A stretch of DNA of 64,000 nucleotides from an uncultured SAR86 cluster bacterium (GTDB lineage Bacteria; Pseudomonadota; Gammaproteobacteria; Magnimaribacterales; Magnimaribacteraceae), in assembly GCA_938048695.1 (NCBI GenBank), contig CALIUO010000018.1, forward strand, positions 1 through 64,000, in the 5' to 3' direction. How positions within the stretch are numbered: position 1 is the first letter of the stretch; each line of letters opens with the position of its first letter. Positions 8,234 through 60,343 of the stretch are shown here, piece after piece. The position numbers and the translations under genes were made by a program. A model generated the notes under the pieces. That model was not told the DNA's origin. It saw nothing but the letters and a program-made list of their open reading frames with translations, and made no database searches.

Positions 8234-8713
8234 ATGGCTAAAGCTTTATATCCTGGTACTTTTGATCCTATAACCTTAGGACATATAGATATAATTGAAA
8301 GAGCTCTTCACCTTTTTGATGAAGTAACTATTGCAATAGCCACAAGCGCTTCCAAAAAACCCATCTTCACCCTCGAAGAGAGAATTGAGCAAGTAGAAAG
8401 AATATTTGAGGGAAATAAAAATGTTAAGGCAATTGGCTTCACTGGTCTGGTTGTTGACCTCGCCAAAGAGCAAGAATCAAATATTCTCATAAGAGGTTTG
8501 AGGGCTGTATCGGACTTTGAATACGAATTCCAACTTGCCAATATGAATAGAGCCATGTCTCCTGATTTAGAGAGCATATTCTTAACACCAAAAGCTAAAT
8601 TTTCTTTTCTATCTTCTACTCTTGTAAGAGAAATAGCCTCTATGGGAGGTGAAATAGATTCATTCGTAGACCCGATCGTGAAAGAAGCTTTACAAAAAAG
8701 ATTTAAAACCTAG
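8234..8713 (+). CDS. coaD: Phosphopantetheine adenylyltransferase
   Basis: [45 protein letters not shown]. Start moved from TTG 8222 to ATG 8234 (MAKALYPG). Confidence 0.97.
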
Positions 8714-9521
8714 TCTGACAATTTGGGCAATAAGCACTAGCCCTTTGCCCAATTCTCTGACCTTTTATAATGGTCTTGCACGCATAGCATTCTTTACCTT
8801 CTCTCCCATAAACTTTTAGACTCTGTTTAAAATAACCAGGTTCATTATTTCCGCTCACAAAGTCTCTTAAAGTTGTTCCTCCATCTTTTATAGACTTTTT
8901 AAGAATAGTAACTATTTCATGTGCCAGTATTTCGTATTTATTTCTTGGAACTCTACCTGCTTGAGAAGAAGGCTTTATTCCTGAAGCATATAGTGCCTCG
9001 CTCGCGTATATGTTCCCGACACCCACAACTATTTTTGAGTTCATGATGAAGTTTTTAATTGGAGTTTTTCTTTTCTTTGAGAGTTTAAAGAGATACTCTC
9101 CATTAAAATGATTACCTAATGGTTCCGGTCCAAGATCTTTCAGGAGGAAATGATTATCAAGGTCATCACTCCATAAAAAACATCCAAATCTTCTGGGATC
9201 ACAATACCTCAGAATAGTCCCATCGTTGAAACATATATCTATGTGATCGTGTTTCTTTATATGTTCTTTATCAGAAATCCTCAAACTTCCTGACATCCCT
9301 AGGTGTATTATCAAATGTTCTTTTGAACTCTCAAGTAAGAGGTATTTACCTCTTCTCTTTATGTTATCTATTCTTTTATTTTTTAGTTTCTTTTGAATCA
9401 AAGATACTGGAACAGGCCACCGCAAAGATTTTTGGCGGACTATCACTGAACTAACAGATTTACTTACTATATGAGGCTCAATGCCCCTCAAAGTAGTTTC
9501 AACCTCTGGTAATTCAGGCAC
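8703..9521 (-). CDS. mutM: Formamidopyrimidine-DNA glycosylase
   Basis: [18 protein letters not shown]-terminus; C-terminal [25 protein letters not shown] zinc finger. Confidence 0.97.
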
Positions 9522-10990: not shown

Positions 10991-11473
10991 ATGACAATAC
11001 AAGTTGGAGATACTGTACCTTCAGTTGGTTTAACTACTATGACTGCAGAAGGTCCAAAACCCGTTTCTTTAAGCGAACTTTCATCAGGAAAGAAGATGGT
11101 TCTTTTTGCTGTCCCAGGAGCTTTTACGCCTACATGCAGCGCTCAACATCTTCCTGGTTTTTTAGAAAAAAATAAAGACTTGAAGGATAAGGGTGTAGAT
11201 ATAGTGGCATGCGTTTCTGTAAATGATCCTTTTGTAATGAAGGCTTGGGGTGAAGATAGAGGTGTAGGAGAAGATGTTTTAATGCTATCTGATGGTAATG
11301 CAGAGTTTACTGCCGCAGTAGGCTTAGAGATGGACGGGAGTGGTTTTGGTCTCGGCACAAGATCTCAAAGATATGCCATGGTTATAGATGACGGTGTTGT
11401 TTCTGTTCTTAATGTTGAATCTGGCCCTGGTCTTGATGTGAGTTCAGCAGAGACAATTCTAGAACAACTATAG
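10991..11473 (+). CDS. Peroxiredoxin (Prx5 type)
   Basis: FAVPGAFTPTCSAQHLPGF peroxidatic Cys motif; SQRYAMVIDDGVV. Confidence 0.94.
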   Translation: MTIQVGDTVPSVGLTTMTAEGPKPVSLSELSSGKKMVLFAVPGAFTPTCSAQHLPGFLEKNKDLKDKGVDIVACVSVNDPFVMKAWGEDRGVGEDVLMLSDGNAEFTAAVGLEMDGSGFGLGTRSQRYAMVIDDGVVSVLNVESGPGLDVSSAETILEQL

Positions 11474-11479
11474 AGAAAT

Positions 11480-12718
11480 ATGTCCAAACCCATTTTTGAC
11501 ATAGGTCAAATTTGTGAATTAGATAAATGGGAAACGTTTATCGATGGTCAGCCTTTTGATCTTTTTAAAAGGTTAAGGCAGGAAGCCCCTATTTATTGGC
11601 ACGAAGAAAGTTTAGATTTTGAACCAGGTTTTTGGGCTCTTACCAAGCACGAAGATATAGTAAAAGTTTCTAAAGATCCTATGACATTTTCATCGGCTGT
11701 TGGCGGTCATTTGATGTCGATGGGAGATCCTGCAGTAGTCGATCCAGCAGCTGTTGCTGCCATAGTAGGCAATATGATAGGTATGGATCCCCCAGATCAT
11801 CAAATTTATAGAAAAATGGTAGCTCCAAGTTTTACACCAAAAGCTATAAGAAGTCTTGAAGTTGATATGAGAGCAAAAGTAAGAGAACTGCTAGACAATG
11901 TTGAAGATAAAGGAGAGTTTAACTTTGTAACAGAGATATCCGAGCAATTACCCCTCTGGGTATTATGTGAAATGATGGGAATTCCTGAATCTGAGAGACC
12001 AAAAATAAGAGATTTGGTTAACAACCTTACAGATGCTTCAATTCAACAAGATCCTAATAACTCATTTCAAATATGGGTTAACTACATGGAGCTATTTAAG
12101 ATGGGTAGAGACATGATTGAGGAGAGAAGAAAAAATCCAACTGAAGATCTCATGAGTGTTGTAGCCAATACTAAGATTGAAGGAGGAGAGCTTCCTCCTG
12201 AATTGCTTGATGGGTTCTTTTTACTCATGGTTATAGCAGGAAATGAAACAACCAGAAATACCCTTACTGGTGGTCTCATGGCACTCACTGATAATCCATT
12301 AGAAAGAGAAAAGCTTCTTAAGGATCCATCTCTTATATCCAATGCCACTGACGAAATGCTGAGATGGGTAACTTCAGTTATTTATTTTAGAAGAACAGCT
12401 ACGAAAGATACCAATATTAGAGGGCAAGATATTAAAGCAGGAGATAAAATTGTTATGTGGTACGGCTCTGCGAATAGAGATGAAGACGTTTTTCCTGACG
12501 GAGATTTATTCAGAGTTGATAGAGAAAATGCTAAGAAACACCTTGCATTTGGAGCTGGCGAACACCTTTGCTTAGGCAATAGATTAGGGCATATGCAAAT
12601 AAGAATTTTATTTGAAGAGTTATTGAGTCGTTATCCCAATATTCGTTACACGTCTGATCCTGTTAGGATCCCTTCAAACTTTTTAGCTGGGATATCTGAA
12701 TTGAAGGTTAGCATTTAA
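11480..12718 (+). CDS. Cytochrome P450
   Basis: I-helix AGNETTRN, K-helix DEMLRW, heme loop FGAGEHLCLGNRLG. Confidence 0.95.
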   Translation: MSKPIFDIGQICELDKWETFIDGQPFDLFKRLRQEAPIYWHEESLDFEPGFWALTKHEDIVKVSKDPMTFSSAVGGHLMSMGDPAVVDPAAVAAIVGNMIGMDPPDHQIYRKMVAPSFTPKAIRSLEVDMRAKVRELLDNVEDKGEFNFVTEISEQLPLWVLCEMMGIPESERPKIRDLVNNLTDASIQQDPNNSFQIWVNYMELFKMGRDMIEERRKNPTEDLMSVVANTKIEGGELPPELLDGFFLLMVIAGNETTRNTLTGGLMALTDNPLEREKLLKDPSLISNATDEMLRWVTSVIYFRRTATKDTNIRGQDIKAGDKIVMWYGSANRDEDVFPDGDLFRVDRENAKKHLAFGAGEHLCLGNRLGHMQIRILFEELLSRYPNIRYTSDPVRIPSNFLAGISELKVSI

Positions 12719-13807
12719 ATGATTTCTAAAGGCGACGATTTTCCAATCCACCAGCTACCAACTCCAGTTGCTGAAGTTGGAACTGAAAGAAATTTCTATG
12801 ACAGATATTTTTTTAATGGCTACAACCAAGATGGAAGTATCTTTTTTGGAGCTGCATTTTGTGTCTATCCTAACTTAAATATTAAAGACGCTAGTTTTAT
12901 CCTTATTTTAGACGGCATTCAGCACAATTTTAGATATTCAGATTTTCTTGATCATGAGAGGATGAAGACAGAAGTCGGGTCTTTTAAAATAGACATAATC
13001 AAGCCTCTCAAAGAAATACGAATCCTTTTAGGCGATAAAGAGAAAGAAATTTTTGCTGATGTAACTTTCAAGGGTAGATTTGAACCCATGGAAGAACCAA
13101 GAATGACTCTTAAGAATGGCTCAAGAATCTATATGGATTCTACTCGTATGACGCAACATGGATATTGGACGGGTGAGATAAAATTTAAGAATACTGTCTT
13201 AAACTTATCGCAGGAGAGCTATCAAGGCACAAGGGATCGGTCCTGGGGCATAAGGCCTGTAGGTGCTCCTGATTCCCAGATTGTCCCACCTTTGAAGCTT
13301 CCTCAATTTTATTGGTTATGGGCTCCAGCTAATTTTGCCAAACAATCCTCCCATTTCTATTTTGTTGATGATGAAGTTGGGCGAGCAACAAATAGTCACT
13401 GCGTTCAGCAGAAAGAAAGCTTAAGCGAGAAGCTGTATCACTTAAAAAAAGAAATTTCTTATAAAGAAGGAACAAGAAGAATATCTAAAGCAGAATTTTC
13501 TGCATTTAAAGGGGATGGCACCGAGGTAGTTTGGACTCTTAATCCAAAATATCATATATATATGTGCGGATTGGGATATATGCATCCTGAATGGGGCCAT
13601 GGTCAGTTTCAGGGGCAAAATCAGTCTCGCTATGACTTTTATGATCTGAGCGAAGATCCACATGACCCACCATTTTTGCATATACAAGCCATATGTGATT
13701 TTGAGATGAAAGAGAATGAGGTTGTAATGAAAGGCATAGGTGCCTTGGAACAACTTCTGATAGGACCTCATAGCCCAAGTGGATTTAAAGATCTTTTAGA
13801 TTGCTAG
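12719..13807 (+). CDS. Uncharacterised protein, possibly DUF7064/DUF7065-like
   Basis: ATG directly follows the P450 TAA (0-nt gap). YQGTRDRSWGIRPVG and FYWLWAPANF; family recalled, not searched. Confidence 0.7.
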   Translation: MISKGDDFPIHQLPTPVAEVGTERNFYDRYFFNGYNQDGSIFFGAAFCVYPNLNIKDASFILILDGIQHNFRYSDFLDHERMKTEVGSFKIDIIKPLKEIRILLGDKEKEIFADVTFKGRFEPMEEPRMTLKNGSRIYMDSTRMTQHGYWTGEIKFKNTVLNLSQESYQGTRDRSWGIRPVGAPDSQIVPPLKLPQFYWLWAPANFAKQSSHFYFVDDEVGRATNSHCVQQKESLSEKLYHLKKEISYKEGTRRISKAEFSAFKGDGTEVVWTLNPKYHIYMCGLGYMHPEWGHGQFQGQNQSRYDFYDLSEDPHDPPFLHIQAICDFEMKENEVVMKGIGALEQLLIGPHSPSGFKDLLDC

Positions 13808-13811
13808 TCCA

Positions 13812-14816
13812 ATGTCTAAAGATTTAACTTCTGCCTTTCTTTCTTATTATTCAGAATTTCAGAAAAAAGAATATTCTTTAATTTCTCTTGAAAGAATTTT
13901 TGGTGGTGCAAGCAGGGAGACATACAAGATCATTCTTAATGATGATTCTAATAAGAAAGAAAGGCTAATTCTCAGACTTTCTCAAGATAGTTCTTTGATA
14001 GAAACGGAGCAAAGAACTGAATATCTTGCTTATTCTGCATTTCAAGAGTCTAACGTTCCTGTCCCAGTTTTGATAGACATGTCAGAGGAAAATACAGAAT
14101 TAGGAGCACCATTTATGCTAATGAGAGAATTGAACGGAGAGGCTGCTAGTCCATTTACTCCAAATATATATGCTCCTCATGAAAACGAGCTTGGAGAACA
14201 GTTTTGGTCTATCTTAGGTGAGATAGCAAAAAAGAAAATAGACAGCGATATTTACGAAGATTTCATTGGAGAGACAGAAAGACCTTTCTGGAAAAATGAG
14301 TTAGATAAATGGGTCAAAATCATACATGAGGACTCCATTGGAATTGAACCAATTTTAGAAGCTGGCATTAGACATCTGTATAAATATCCACCCAATGAAA
14401 GTGAAATTATAAGTATGGTCCATGGAGATTACAGAAGCGGTAACTTTCTATATGCTGAAAATAAAATAACTGGAATCCTTGACTGGGAAATGGCTCATTT
14501 AGGTGATCCATTAGAAGATCTAGGTTGGGCATTATCTCCTATATGGAGCTGGCAAGATAAAGAGCGTCCTGCATATTTGGTAAAAAGAGAAGATGCTATA
14601 AGTATATGGGAAGCAACTAGTGATATTAGCCTAAATAAAGATGATCTCCAGTGGTGGGAACTCTTTGCCGCTATAAAAGGCATGGCTATTTGGATTTCAG
14701 CAGGTAATGAATTTAAGTCGGGTAAAAATATAGACCCTATTAATTTATTCTCGGCCTGGATTCCTGGTGATATCCACCTTGAAATTATCTTGGATATATT
14801 AGAGAGAAATACATGA
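13812..14816 (+). CDS. APH-family phosphotransferase (ACAD10/11-N-terminal / LvaA-like)
   Basis: MVHGDYRSGNFLYAENKITGILDWEMAHLGDPLEDLGW kinase motifs. Confidence 0.88.
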   Translation: MSKDLTSAFLSYYSEFQKKEYSLISLERIFGGASRETYKIILNDDSNKKERLILRLSQDSSLIETEQRTEYLAYSAFQESNVPVPVLIDMSEENTELGAPFMLMRELNGEAASPFTPNIYAPHENELGEQFWSILGEIAKKKIDSDIYEDFIGETERPFWKNELDKWVKIIHEDSIGIEPILEAGIRHLYKYPPNESEIISMVHGDYRSGNFLYAENKITGILDWEMAHLGDPLEDLGWALSPIWSWQDKERPAYLVKREDAISIWEATSDISLNKDDLQWWELFAAIKGMAIWISAGNEFKSGKNIDPINLFSAWIPGDIHLEIILDILERNT

Positions 14817-15250
14817 AACCAGACATCAATATTGCTCTACTTAATGCTGCGCAGGAAATTATAAATAGATTCAGTCCTTTAATTGAGGATGAGTATGAAA
14901 GATCACGTCTTGGTTCATGGGGAGCACTAATACTTATTTCGGCTATGAAATTTAATGATGCAAGCTCTTCATTGAAGAAAGAGAATGGCGATATCGTAAA
15001 GTGGTTAAAAAATCATACGAAATTAAGAAAGGAAGAACTTGAAAAGTTCGAATCTTGCGAGGACAAAAATCTGGATCAATTAGAACAAGATAATCAAAAC
15101 CTGAGAGAAATTTTGGATAAGCAAATTCAAGAAATACAAGTAAAAGAGGATAATGTTTTATTCAGAGAAGGAATTTATTTGATGAGATCTATGCATCAAA
15201 GACGCAAAGTAAGCGACCTCATAGGTATGTTACAACAGCAGGAAAGTTAA
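14813..15250 (+). CDS. Small protein, possible DUF6285/LvaB-like kinase accessory
   Basis: Start overlaps kinase stop by 4 nt (ATGA); helical KPDINIALLNAAQEIINRFSPLIEDEYERSRLGSW. Family assignment is tentative. Confidence 0.55.
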   Translation: MKPDINIALLNAAQEIINRFSPLIEDEYERSRLGSWGALILISAMKFNDASSSLKKENGDIVKWLKNHTKLRKEELEKFESCEDKNLDQLEQDNQNLREILDKQIQEIQVKEDNVLFREGIYLMRSMHQRRKVSDLIGMLQQQES

Positions 15251-31181: not shown

Positions 31182-32582
31182 TTAGCCTTGTCTCCAATTT
31201 CCATGGAAACCATAAGGTATTCTGTGTGGCAACATAGCCCTTGCAAGAGGCCCGGTTGCAACATTCTCTGCATCAAAAATCATCAAGTCCGAGCGGTTTT
31301 CTTGTCCCAGATAAGCCAACGCAATCAGATACCCTTCACCCTCTCTTGAGCTTTCATTTTTAGGTACAAAGATCGGCTCGCCAACCGCATCAAACTCAGA
31401 GAGTGTGTAGTTATCTTTATGTCCACTTTCAAAGTCATAACTTGTTATCGTGTTGAAGCTCACACCTTTTGGGGATTCGCCATTATTCGAAGCGTAATAA
31501 CCGTATCTATATTTAGACATTGACTTTCTTTCATCTAACCTCGGAAATTCACCGATACTTTCATCAAGATAATTTTTCTTAATAGAACCTGAATTAGATC
31601 CGAGATCTATTTCCCATCTATTCAACCTTGCTTCTCCTTTCTTTAGATCTGGTCTTGATCCATCAAGATGAGGAAACATAGGAGCTTCTTCAAATTGCAT
31701 CATGTCTGCAATAATTTTTCCTTCATCTTCATAAGCATTCATCGGATGAAAAACGAAACAAGGATCGCTTTCTATCCATTTAATATCTTTAGCCGTGCCA
31801 TCTCTGGGCATGATCCCAATTTGACTAGGCCTATGAGCATCCCATGCAATTGGAGATTTACCTTCAGCTACTAGTTGAAAGTCAATGATGAGAGGGAATA
31901 CCGGAAAAATTACATGCTTAGTAGTAACAACAAAGTCATGAACCATACTAGAATAAGGCGTTTCAAATTCCGTATATGTAGTCATAACACCCTCTGCATT
32001 CACCACAAAATAACTCATTTTATTCACGCCAAATCCGTAGCTAAAACCTATCATCTCGCCTGAAATTGGATCAATTTTAGGATGGGCAGTCATTGCAGAA
32101 TCTAATTTTCCTTTGTAGTTCCAAGCACCTTTTGATTCTAAAGAAAGTGGATCTAATTCAAATGGTTTATGACCTTCTTCTAGAGCAAGCAGTTTTCCTG
32201 AATGAAATACAATATTTGTATTGGCTGTTCCATCATCTCCTTCAAAATTGTATTCAGGATCTGGAGCCATAGGATTCAAGGCATTTACTAAAGATCTTCC
32301 TGCTTTTCTTTCTTGCTTCCATTTGGAGGTTTTAGCCCATCTGTTGAGATAAGAAATCTTTCCATTTTCAAAATGAAAAGCATGAATCATGCCATCACCG
32401 GAAAACCAATGATAATCTCCTCCCATAGGAGGGAATTGAGGATCAGGTCCGTTTCTGTAATAGCTTCCAAATAGATCTCTTGGTACTTCTCCGTCAATTA
32501 TCAAGTCCTGAATATCACACTCCATTCTGAGCGGAGCATAGTTTCCTCTTAAATTAGGATGATCTGGATATGTTTCTGTCAT
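31182..32582 (-). CDS. Carotenoid cleavage oxygenase family protein
   Basis: GSYYRNGPDPQFPPMGGDYHWFSGDGMIHAFHFENG; TAHPKIDP; MVHDFVVTTKHVIFP; C-terminal IPYGFHGNW. Confidence 0.93.
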   Translation of the reverse strand: MTETYPDHPNLRGNYAPLRMECDIQDLIIDGEVPRDLFGSYYRNGPDPQFPPMGGDYHWFSGDGMIHAFHFENGKISYLNRWAKTSKWKQERKAGRSLVNALNPMAPDPEYNFEGDDGTANTNIVFHSGKLLALEEGHKPFELDPLSLESKGAWNYKGKLDSAMTAHPKIDPISGEMIGFSYGFGVNKMSYFVVNAEGVMTTYTEFETPYSSMVHDFVVTTKHVIFPVFPLIIDFQLVAEGKSPIAWDAHRPSQIGIMPRDGTAKDIKWIESDPCFVFHPMNAYEDEGKIIADMMQFEEAPMFPHLDGSRPDLKKGEARLNRWEIDLGSNSGSIKKNYLDESIGEFPRLDERKSMSKYRYGYYASNNGESPKGVSFNTITSYDFESGHKDNYTLSEFDAVGEPIFVPKNESSREGEGYLIALAYLGQENRSDLMIFDAENVATGPLARAMLPHRIPYGFHGNWRQG

Positions 32583-55713: not shown

Positions 55714-57993
55714 ATGCGCTATTTACAGATCACAGGTCTCATTCTGACCTTTATATTGTCGTTTTCCTTGGGATCTGAAATAAAAATTGATGGGTCGCTT
55801 GATGAGGCTGAGTGGCAGAAAGCCAAGGTAATTGATAAGTTTTTTGAAGTTTATCCATATTCCTTGCGAGAAGTAAATGATTATAAGACACAAATACTGA
55901 TTATTGAATCTGAGCAAGGTCTCTATTTTGGTTTTAAGAATTTTCAAACAAACGAAACAATGAGACTTAATAATCATTTACGTGATCAAGAACGATCATT
56001 GTCAGACAAGAATGGAATAGTAATAGACTTTGATGGAGATGGTATTGAGGGCTATAACTTCTTTATTTCTTCCAGTGGATCAGTCGGTGATGCAACAGTA
56101 ACCGACGAAAAGGAAAGAAATTGGGACTGGGATGCAGATTGGCAATCTGCCGCTTTAGTTAAGGATGGCGTTTGGTATTCAGAAACTTTTATACCTTGGA
56201 CGATTGCCTCAATGAAAACTCAAACAGGTGATAAAAGAAAGATTAAGATGGCTTTTTATAGGATGCTCATGGGAGTTGGAAGAGGTTTCTCAACTATCAA
56301 AGGCAGTGTTTATGAAAATGTTTACTTATCTGTTTTTGACGAATTCCAATTTAATAACTACCCAGGTACAAAATTAGATTTTTTCCCCTACATGACCCTG
56401 ACTGAAGATATTGCTAACTCAGATCAAATTTCTAAAGCCGGAGCTGAAATTTTTTGGAAAATTGATTCTAGTAAACAGCTTAACCTCACCTTGAATCCAG
56501 ATTTTGGGCAAGTTGAGAGCGATGAGGTTGTTGTAAATTTTTCTGCTTTTGAAACCTTCTACTCAGACAAGAGACCATTCTTTGCTGAAAATAATAGTAT
56601 GTTTGATGTGAGTGATCGCATGCATAGAATTATTAACACAAGAAGGATAGGCGGTAGGCCTGATTATGATTGTGCTATATCCGGCGACTTAGAGGAATAT
56701 TGCCTAGAAAATAGAGCAGAAACTAGTGAAATAGATTTCGCCTTAAAATACACCCAAAAGGGTGAAGTAGATTTTGGTTTCATGAGTGCCTCCGAGAGGG
56801 ATGAAAAGTTTTCACAAGGTAGAGATTTTTATGCCTTGAGGCTAAATACAAAAGTAAATGACTTGAAATATGGATATCTTGGGACATATGTCGATAAACC
56901 AGTTTCAGGAGAAAATGCTCAAGTTAATTCATTAGATTTTATTTATCTTCCTTCAAAAGTTCATAGAATGAACGGCAATTTTATGCATTCAAAAGCTAAC
57001 AATCAAGATGGCTTTGGTATGACGATGGGTTATACGTATAACCCTAATCAAGACTTTTCTTCAGGTATCGGCATAAATTTCTATGATGATCAGCTTGATC
57101 TCAATGATATGGGATATCTCATATTGAACGATCGCTTAATGTTCAATGGTAGAACACAATTCAAAAAGACTAGATTTTCACCAGGCTCTGTTTTGAGGTC
57201 CAGATTATTTGAGGTAGGTTATGGATCAAAATTTAATGCAGATACTGTTAGGGAGTCATCAAATTTTGCTTTAAAAGTTGAAGCTAACTTTATTGACCTT
57301 TCTGAAATAAAAACTGAAATTTTTTATAGAAGTACAGGCAGAAATACAAGAATCACTAGAGGTTCTTTACTAGCTCCTTATGTTGATATGCCCAAAGGGG
57401 TGGGAGGTTATATTGAATTTACCGGCCCACGCAAGCCAAAATACATATATAGCTTGAGATTTGAAAGAGGTAAGGGCAGCGAACATTCTCCGGGTATAAG
57501 TTGGAAAAATTCTTCAAGGGCCTTTATAAAGTTTATGCCTCGCGACAATCTATCATTCAATATGTCATATAACCATGCTGAAGAGAAAAATTGGCTAAAT
57601 TGGCTAGATGATAACCTCTTGGCTACCTACAAAAGAAAACAAAGAACTAGTGTTTTTGAACTTGAATGGTTCAAAAATAACAAACATGAGTTAAGAATAA
57701 AGGCTCAACTAGTAGCATTTACTGGCAGAGATCCTACTCCTTATCTAGGAGATAAAAAGGGAAAGTTAACTCAAACAGATATACCTCTCTCACCTCTTAC
57801 GATAAGTGAATTGGCATTTCAGATTAGATATAGATATGAAATCATGCCTCTTTCCTATCTCTACTTAGTTTATTCCAAAGGGGGTCGAGTTTCTCTTGAT
57901 GACGAAGAGGATAATCTTTCAAACCTCTACAGACGACCTTGGAATAGTCCACAAAAAGAAAACTTTACGGTAAAACTTAGATATAGATTTTAA
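55714..57993 (+). CDS. Outer-membrane protein with N-terminal CBM9-like domain and C-terminal beta-barrel (DUF5916-like), copy 1
   Basis: IKIDGSLDEAEWQKAKVIDKF; SKQLNLTLNPDFGQVESDEVVVNFSAFETFYSDKRPFFAEN; ends VKLRYRF. Confidence 0.88.
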   Translation: MRYLQITGLILTFILSFSLGSEIKIDGSLDEAEWQKAKVIDKFFEVYPYSLREVNDYKTQILIIESEQGLYFGFKNFQTNETMRLNNHLRDQERSLSDKNGIVIDFDGDGIEGYNFFISSSGSVGDATVTDEKERNWDWDADWQSAALVKDGVWYSETFIPWTIASMKTQTGDKRKIKMAFYRMLMGVGRGFSTIKGSVYENVYLSVFDEFQFNNYPGTKLDFFPYMTLTEDIANSDQISKAGAEIFWKIDSSKQLNLTLNPDFGQVESDEVVVNFSAFETFYSDKRPFFAENNSMFDVSDRMHRIINTRRIGGRPDYDCAISGDLEEYCLENRAETSEIDFALKYTQKGEVDFGFMSASERDEKFSQGRDFYALRLNTKVNDLKYGYLGTYVDKPVSGENAQVNSLDFIYLPSKVHRMNGNFMHSKANNQDGFGMTMGYTYNPNQDFSSGIGINFYDDQLDLNDMGYLILNDRLMFNGRTQFKKTRFSPGSVLRSRLFEVGYGSKFNADTVRESSNFALKVEANFIDLSEIKTEIFYRSTGRNTRITRGSLLAPYVDMPKGVGGYIEFTGPRKPKYIYSLRFERGKGSEHSPGISWKNSSRAFIKFMPRDNLSFNMSYNHAEEKNWLNWLDDNLLATYKRKQRTSVFELEWFKNNKHELRIKAQLVAFTGRDPTPYLGDKKGKLTQTDIPLSPLTISELAFQIRYRYEIMPLSYLYLVYSKGGRVSLDDEEDNLSNLYRRPWNSPQKENFTVKLRYRF

Positions 57994-58036
57994 AATCCTT
58001 AAAGAATAGAATGACCGCCTCTTAAGGGGAAACATC

Positions 58037-60343
58037 TTGCACAGGAAGCTTATTAAATTCTTTTATCTCACATTATTTTTTTTATCCCCCTTACTACATT
58101 CCCTGGAAATAAATATTGACGGAGTGCTTGATGAGAATGAATGGTCTGAAGCTAGAGAAATCACCAAGTATTACGAGAGTCTTCCATATACTCTGAATGA
58201 TGCTTCTGGCACTCAAAAAGTCCTTGTTTTGGAAGATGAAAATGGAATTTACTTTGGCTTCATAAGTTACCAAGACATAGAAAGTATAAGGGCCCAGAAA
58301 CATCAAAGAGATGAAGAAATGGCTAATGCTGATATGGTTGGAGTATCAATAGATTTTGATGGTGACGGCCTATTATCTTATGGATTCTCTATTTCAGCAG
58401 GCGGCTCAATACTTGATAACGTTGTACGTAATGAAAATGAAATGAACTACGATTGGGACGCTGATTGGGGCCATGGCGTAAGTATTGATAATGATGGATG
58501 GTACGCTGAAATGTTCATACCTTGGAGTGTGGCTCCGATGAAAGCTCAAAAAGGAGAGAAAAGAAAAGTTAAACTTTCTTTTTATAGATGGCTAAGAGGA
58601 GATTTTAAAGTCTATACGACCATTAAAGGCAATCCGAGAACAGAGAAATTCATCTCAATTTTTAATGATTACGAGTTTAATAATTATGATGTCTCGAAGA
58701 TAGACTATTTTCCTTATGTAAATTTTTCCGATGACCGAGTAATCGAAGATTTAGATAAAAAAGTAGGTGCAGAAATCTTTTGGAAGATAGATGCAGGTAA
58801 ACAATTAAATATCGCGTTGAATCCAGATTTTGGACAGGTAGAAAGTGATGAATTAGTTGTAAACTTTGATTCTAGTGAAACTTTTTATTCAGATAAGAGA
58901 CCTTTTTTCTCTGAAAATCATTCTTTATTTGATGTTAAAGGTTTCAGATTCTTCTACGTAATAAATACTAGACGAATAGGAGCTGCTCCGGATTATGATT
59001 GCTCTGAATATCTTGAATCTTTAAAAGCTCTGTGTGAATCTTCTCAAGTAGGTATTTCCGATATAGATTATGCAGTTCGCTATACTCAGCAAAACGAATC
59101 CTTTGATTTTGGTTTCTTGGGCGCTTCGGAAGCAGATGAAGAATTCAGCCAAGGAAGAGATTTTTATTCCGTAAGATTACGAAAAGCAGAAAAGAAATTT
59201 TCAATTGGTTATTTAGGCACATTTACAAAAAGACCCGTTTTAGATCGGGAAGCAAATGTCAATTCGGTAGATATGATCTACAGACCGAAAGATACTTTGC
59301 GTTTTGATGCTATCTTCATCAATTCACAGGTTGATGACCCCAGAGTTGAAAAAGACTCTGGAAATGCTTTTAGGTTTAGGATGACAACCTCTCCAAGCAA
59401 GCAAAGATATCATGATGTAGGAATTTTTTATTTTGATAAGAACCTAGATATTACTGATATGGGTTATCAAATGGAAAATAACTGGCTATTTGCTGGTTCT
59501 CAAAATGGTTTAAAGTTTACTGACTATGATGAGGATTCGCCTTTTCAATCGAACCAGATTGAATTAGGTGTGGGTTATGAATCTAATGGAAATCTTGATA
59601 AATCAGCTGACTTTACATATCTGACACTAAAGACTTATTTTAAAAATACAACTTATATAGAATTTACTAACTTTTTTAGAACTTCTAGCAAGGATTATTG
59701 GATTACAAGAAAAGATCCTACAGCTCCATTTATTGTAAAACCAGAAAACTACGGAACAAACATTCAATATAGTGGCCCCTCTAGAAACTTCTTTAATTAC
59801 TTCATAGAAATAAAGAGAGAGAAGGGGAGTCAGTGGAGGTCTGCTTTGGGATTTGCGAATTCTTACGCAACAAAACTCAGCTTTGCCCCAAGAGATAATC
59901 TTAATTTTTCTATTTATTATCAGCACCTTGAAGAAGAGCAATGGCTAAATTGGATTCAAGATAATTTATTAGGTATTTATTCAAGAAAACAGAGAACCAC
60001 TGTTGCAGACCTTAATTGGTTTGTTGGGGACAAACATGAATTAAGGGTTAAAGCTCAAATGGTGGGTTTTACCGCAAGAGATCCAAAGCCATATCTGGGT
60101 GATTCACTAGGTCAACTCAATCCTGTTAACATTTCACTGGATCCCTTTACTTTAAGTGATCTTGCTTTCCAGATAAGATATCGTTACGAAATTCTTCCAT
60201 TGGCGTATCTTTATGTTGTTTACTCTAGAGGAGGCAGAATCATTCAAACAGACCTAGAAAATGATCTTGAAGAAATCTATAAGAGGCCCTGGAATGAGCC
60301 TCAAGCGGATACTTTTACTGTAAAAGTTAGATACCGTTTTTAG
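58037..60343 (+). CDS. Outer-membrane protein with CBM9-like domain and beta-barrel (DUF5916-like), copy 2
   Basis: INIDGVLDENEWSEAREITKYY; GKQLNIALNPDFGQVESDELVVNFDSSETFYSDKRPFFSEN; ends VKVRYRF; TTG start with AGGGGA upstream. Confidence 0.87.
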   Translation: MHRKLIKFFYLTLFFLSPLLHSLEINIDGVLDENEWSEAREITKYYESLPYTLNDASGTQKVLVLEDENGIYFGFISYQDIESIRAQKHQRDEEMANADMVGVSIDFDGDGLLSYGFSISAGGSILDNVVRNENEMNYDWDADWGHGVSIDNDGWYAEMFIPWSVAPMKAQKGEKRKVKLSFYRWLRGDFKVYTTIKGNPRTEKFISIFNDYEFNNYDVSKIDYFPYVNFSDDRVIEDLDKKVGAEIFWKIDAGKQLNIALNPDFGQVESDELVVNFDSSETFYSDKRPFFSENHSLFDVKGFRFFYVINTRRIGAAPDYDCSEYLESLKALCESSQVGISDIDYAVRYTQQNESFDFGFLGASEADEEFSQGRDFYSVRLRKAEKKFSIGYLGTFTKRPVLDREANVNSVDMIYRPKDTLRFDAIFINSQVDDPRVEKDSGNAFRFRMTTSPSKQRYHDVGIFYFDKNLDITDMGYQMENNWLFAGSQNGLKFTDYDEDSPFQSNQIELGVGYESNGNLDKSADFTYLTLKTYFKNTTYIEFTNFFRTSSKDYWITRKDPTAPFIVKPENYGTNIQYSGPSRNFFNYFIEIKREKGSQWRSALGFANSYATKLSFAPRDNLNFSIYYQHLEEEQWLNWIQDNLLGIYSRKQRTTVADLNWFVGDKHELRVKAQMVGFTARDPKPYLGDSLGQLNPVNISLDPFTLSDLAFQIRYRYEILPLAYLYVVYSRGGRIIQTDLENDLEEIYKRPWNEPQADTFTVKVRYRF

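Follow-up and report, generated by a model that had tools for sequence, protein, structure and literature searches.

A conserved SAR86 operon that probably encodes a P450-fed, ATP-driven dehydration module

The window, a 64,000 nt stretch of contig CALIUO010000018.1 from an uncultured SAR86 cluster bacterium, contains a five-gene operon that probably (we put the chance at roughly two in three) encodes an ATP-driven dehydration, or desaturation, module composed of hydroxylation, phosphorylation and phosphate elimination steps. The genes are as follows:

10991-11473, + strand: redoxin-family peroxiredoxin (Pfam Redoxin, 3.6e-40), the first gene of the operon
11480-12718, + strand: cytochrome P450, 412 amino acids (Pfam p450, 1.8e-26), ATG start
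12719-13807, + strand: Rv3169-family protein, predicted phosphate lyase, 362 amino acids (NF053593, 336 bits), ATG start
13812-14816, + strand: APH-superfamily small-molecule kinase, predicted alcohol kinase (Pfam APH, 9e-30), ATG start
14813-15250, + strand: all-helical 145 amino acid protein, predicted LvaB-like kinase partner, ATG start; such proteins follow clade A kinases (see below)

In the proposed cascade the P450 would insert a hydroxyl group (the likeliest site being an unactivated carbon at a branch of an isoprenoid-like chain), the APH-type kinase would phosphorylate that alcohol with the assistance of the 145 amino acid helical protein (much as LvaB assists LvaA), and the Rv3169-family protein, a homolog of 25-phosphosteroid lyase, would eliminate the phosphate to leave an alkene; the peroxiredoxin may handle P450-derived peroxide or lipid hydroperoxides. 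The lyase step is assigned by homology and the kinase step by both family and linkage; for the P450 step, linkage is the sole basis. The kinase/phosphate-lyase dehydration logic is already known from bacterial cholesterol breakdown, and what is probably new here is a module of this kind that is fed by a P450, uses a kinase of a different lineage and includes an unannotated kinase partner. SAR86 is one of the most common uncultured groups in surface seawater, with a diet that is largely inferred; the operon suggests a series of enzyme reactions, in a set order, that can be tested.

The initial annotation described the last four of these genes as joined by 0 nt, 4 nt and 4 nt overlap junctions, and this is correct (a TAA immediately followed by ATG, a 4 nt gap and an ATGA overlap, respectively). 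Its left boundary at 11480 is too narrow, as the redoxin gene, retained in all 21 large family loci, ends 6 nt 5′ of the P450 gene. Neighborhood analysis likewise bears out the conservation of the linkage; the order redoxin, P450, lyase, kinase, small protein is constant in all 21 large loci, drawn from seven genera of this SAR86 family, and an identical order in so many loci places the operon beyond chance. The P450 and lyase genes are 0–10 bp apart in the family loci, which are mostly flanked by a TolC-like gene on one side and by gyrase/topoisomerase-type subunit genes on the other. The source genome is a 1.33 Mb assembly that is 85% complete, and its nearest named records are SAR86 cluster bacteria. 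The encoded redoxin, P450, lyase, kinase and small protein are 88, 92, 78, 75 and 59% identical, respectively, to those of a near-complete relative (G005), values which indicate that the operon is maintained and that the small protein is evolving fastest.

The 362 amino acid protein exceeds the curated NF053593 (Rv3169 family) cut-off of 150 bits more than twofold over residues 3–348, its residues 2–228 match the 25-phosphosteroid lyase structures (PDB 9fzn, 9g2i and 9g4c; E=2e-39), and it has the motif RDRSWG(V/I)RPVG in common with that enzyme; by sequence it is thus clearly homologous to the solved lyase. The initial annotation suggested DUF7064/DUF7065 for this gene. The Pfam search gave no direct match to either domain, and NF053593 is the family that it hits, but the guess was near the mark, since a DUF7064/7065 protein encoded elsewhere in the same genome is its remote homolog (hhalign E=1e-19). 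A gene for such a protein on contig C22 (L063:7347-8360, + strand) overlaps a luciferase-like monooxygenase gene (8357-9343, + strand) by 4 nt, and the two are possibly a second oxygenase-plus-lyase pair. In one genome of a sister SAR86 family the lyase gene is split into two reading frames (L112:5839-6937, - strand); it is whole in the close relatives L162–L164.

Of the known systems, the operon comes closest to the 25-hydroxysteroid kinase (25-HSK) and 25-phosphosteroid lyase pair of Sterolibacterium denitrificans, rather than to the levulinate pathway. There, 25-HSK adds a phosphate to the tertiary alcohol at C25 of steroids, and loss of this phosphate gives a delta-24 alkene (PMC8449060, PMC11061730). 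The SAR86 operon shares with it the lyase homolog (9fzn), an APH-superfamily kinase and the logic of hydroxylation, phosphorylation and elimination. They differ in that the hydroxyl group comes from the molybdenum enzyme S25DH in S. denitrificans and would come from a P450 in SAR86, that the SAR86 kinase belongs to a different clade and has a small partner, and that the kinase and lyase genes are adjacent in SAR86, whereas no lyase candidate lies near the S. denitrificans kinase gene (PMC8449060). Mycobacterium tuberculosis Rv3168 and Rv3169 form an operon of a kinase and a lyase-family protein (PMC5340868) and so resemble the SAR86 pair in their adjacency, but no P450 or small protein is reported in that two-gene operon. 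A more far-reaching form of our reading, which as a whole falls somewhat short of even odds, is that the operon, near-universal in one SAR86 family, does with oxygen what the sterol cascade does anaerobically: a P450 would make the tertiary alcohol, the kinase and lyase would dehydrate it through a high-energy phosphoester so that ATP is spent on an isoprenoid double bond, and the kinase would depend on an undescribed family of small helical proteins distantly related to LvaB.

The kinase has the APH fold, and its intact VHGDYRSGN and DWE (LDWEM) motifs are of the HxDxxxxN and DxE types, as in 25-HSK. Among solved structures, however, it scores only 26 bits with 25-HSK and 34 bits with Rv3168, and it is not of their lineage (WGDxRxGN); a kinase from a sister SAR86 family scores 126 and 110 bits with its best PDB matches, 9fsg and Rv3168, respectively. 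Judging from its annotated name, its length and adjacent accession numbers, 9fsg is probably 25-HSK. In a maximum-likelihood tree the window kinase falls in clade A (support 94/93), separate from a DUF6285-linked clade D (98/99) and an EcKL-like clade (100/100).

Survey of 100 lyase-family loci (80 from named records and 20 from genome samples) found a kinase gene directly downstream in 62; four of the other 38 have one upstream. Lyase–kinase linkage is thus common but not universal. The linked kinases belong to at least three lineages, namely clade A (“HGDYR”), EcKL-like and WGDxRxGN. Outside this SAR86 family, clade A kinases are present at 25 lyase loci in Alphaproteobacteria, other Gammaproteobacteria and one Desulfobacteria genome. 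EcKL-like kinases occur at 18 loci, none of which has the small protein, and the WGDxRxGN type follows the lyase gene in sister SAR86 families and in an OCS116 bacterium. A lyase that stays constant while its kinases are exchanged fits a “phosphorylate, then eliminate” function. The operon further suggests that members of the Rv3169 family, that of M. tuberculosis among them, act as phosphate lyases with interchangeable kinases. Linkage of a P450 to the lyase is confined to this SAR86 family. When the neighbors in 90 loci were clustered, only the kinases and the small protein were recognizable as recurring partners. This led us to drop the idea of an operon for light response or carotenoids, which a photolyase gene in L181 and a ferrochelatase gene in L161 had brought to mind.

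The small protein has no Pfam, NCBIfam or PDB match. It is modeled, with fair to good confidence (pLDDT 82), as a helical bundle, and a fold search with this model returned only weak helical-bundle matches, none of them significant (E≥0.16). It is present in 32 of 35 genomes of the SAR86 family, many of which are incomplete, and was not found in the other 116 genomes searched alongside them. In a separate 398-genome sample, all six genomes that carry it are among the 22 with a lyase-family gene (hypergeometric p ∼1e-8, not corrected for relatedness). It is paired exclusively with clade A kinases, and a homolog follows the kinase in all 25 clade A lyase loci outside the family, except that in three of these it is fused instead. 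The fusions are Sphingomonas kinases of 469 amino acids (L222:7107-8516, L223 and L229), whose C-terminal domain weakly matches the small protein (∼22 bits). A role as kinase partner is thus likely for this unannotated protein family, which extends across Pseudomonadota and into one Desulfobacteria genome.

The similarity of this gene pair to LvaA–LvaB, which the initial annotation proposed, stands in part. According to the summary in PMC6692424, LvaB of Pseudomonas putida comes down with LvaA in pull-downs and is required for growth on levulinate, and in both systems a kinase gene is followed by one for a small helical protein, with kinase fusions known in both small-protein families. The identification of the 145 amino acid protein as DUF6285 does not hold, since neither it nor its homologs match PF19802 at E≤1; what is found is a weak, colinear profile similarity. 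When both families were widened, hhalign aligned 102 colinear columns with P=1.2e-4 and a probability of 56% (single-reversed controls gave 0.04–0.07), and reversing both families, which leaves a true match intact, gave P=3.6e-4; the earlier narrow and intermediate sets gave P=0.56 and 0.0022, respectively. This similarity is not proof of homology, because the family sets were widened stepwise, there were few controls and the two families share a helical character. Helix order is similar in the models of the two proteins, but the DUF6285 model has a pLDDT of 67, so this likeness is merely suggestive. LvaB and the 145 amino acid protein may be distant relatives, or else analogs. Two unannotated proteins of 160–162 amino acids encoded beside lyase/kinase genes in distant genomes (L113:4430-4918 and L128:6552-7034, both - strand) each show weak profile similarity to either DUF6285 or the small protein of the window.

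These likenesses, together with the 4 nt overlap of the kinase and small protein genes, are what favors a pathway of the LvaA–LvaB type, in which the kinase would phosphorylate a gamma-hydroxyacyl-CoA, an acyl-CoA dehydrogenase (ACAD) would eliminate the phosphate and the small protein would be LvaB. We regard it as very unlikely here, as the small protein fails DUF6285, the kinase lies apart from the DUF6285-linked clade, and the operon has no ACAD, its place beside the kinase being taken by the phosphosteroid lyase homolog. In addition, the same genome carries an LvaC-A-B-like set elsewhere, with ACAD and kinase genes at one end of contig C32 and a DUF6285 gene terminating C31 (L064 and L060 are the loci at the C31/C32 ends); in relative G005 the set is contiguous (L237:4796-7353, - strand), and it is likely a 4-hydroxyacyl-CoA pathway. 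Its kinase belongs to the DUF6285-linked clade and has ACAD11 as its nearest solved structure. In ACAD10 and ACAD11, which combine a 4-hydroxyacyl-CoA kinase with a dehydrogenase, an APH-type kinase domain activates the hydroxyl group for elimination (PMC12440821, PMC11342911); the window kinase has such a domain in common with them but scores only 24 bits with ACAD11, compared to 40 bits for the DUF6285-linked kinase. The general logic of oxygenase, APH-type kinase and phosphate elimination in the initial annotation is thus supported, as is the pairing of the kinase with a small protein, but levulinate is not the closest parallel, and nothing was found in favor of a hydroxyacyl-CoA substrate or of a role for the unlinked ACADs of the window. 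The idea that the kinase and Rv3169-family protein detoxify or give resistance to some compound by phosphorylation, with no elimination step, appears highly improbable; the APH fold is common to resistance kinases, but all NCBIfam resistance-kinase matches of the window kinase are far below their curated cut-offs, and linkage to the lyase homolog recurs with three types of kinase.

The remaining alternatives concern the substrate and its fate. The P450 heme-binding FGAGEHLCLG, I-helix AGNETT and ExxR motifs are intact in all 22 family P450s, and the best solved relative of the window protein is CYP125MRCA, a reconstructed ancestor of CYP125 (PDB 8vxi, E=3e-98), which ranks ahead of CYP126, CYP153 and CYP124. 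The two are 42% identical, just above the >40% usual for family membership, but this value refers to the reconstructed ancestor; natural CYP125 chains score lower (∼215 bits) than CYP126 (267 bits) with the window P450 as query, so assignment to a P450 family is tentative. With the homology of the lyase to 25-phosphosteroid lyase and the prediction that SAR86 genomes carry a testosterone/cholate pathway (PMC4810484), this likeness would fit true sterol side-chain degradation, in which the P450 hydroxylates the side chain and the kinase and lyase act as in S. denitrificans to feed steroid catabolism. We consider this unlikely, since a terminal-oxidizing P450 such as CYP125 would not need dehydration at C25, and KshA_C, the ring hydroxylase domain that marks aerobic 9,10-seco steroid ring degradation, is missing from four genomes of this genus (G000, G005, G012 and G015) and from G019, all of which keep the operon. 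Because the operon is kept where this marker is absent, an isoprenoid or other branched lipid is as likely a substrate as a steroid. Among the genomes searched KshA_C was present only in G024, which represents one genus of the family and has four KshA_C and eight P450 matches (contigs C8, C9 and C13; L241–L244), compared to none and two in the window genome; members of the SAR86 family thus probably differ greatly in steroid degradation.

A biosynthetic or tailoring role, in which the module would introduce a double bond into an isoprenoid or lipid of the cell itself (a carotenoid, hopanoid or membrane lipid, for example) instead of serving catabolism, is conceivable though rather doubtful. 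It is favored by the family-wide presence of the operon in small genomes (roughly 1–1.8 Mb), by the redoxin within it and by the fact that no CoA ligase, ACAD or regulator gene directly adjoins it. On the other hand, relatives of the lyase elsewhere lie in varied contexts. Two other parts of the window stood out. The gene at 31182-32582 (- strand) encodes a protein that by eye resembles carotenoid oxygenases (RPE65-like), and 55714-60343 (+ strand) encodes two adjacent, clearly similar proteins of 759 and 768 amino acids that look secreted or outer-membrane.
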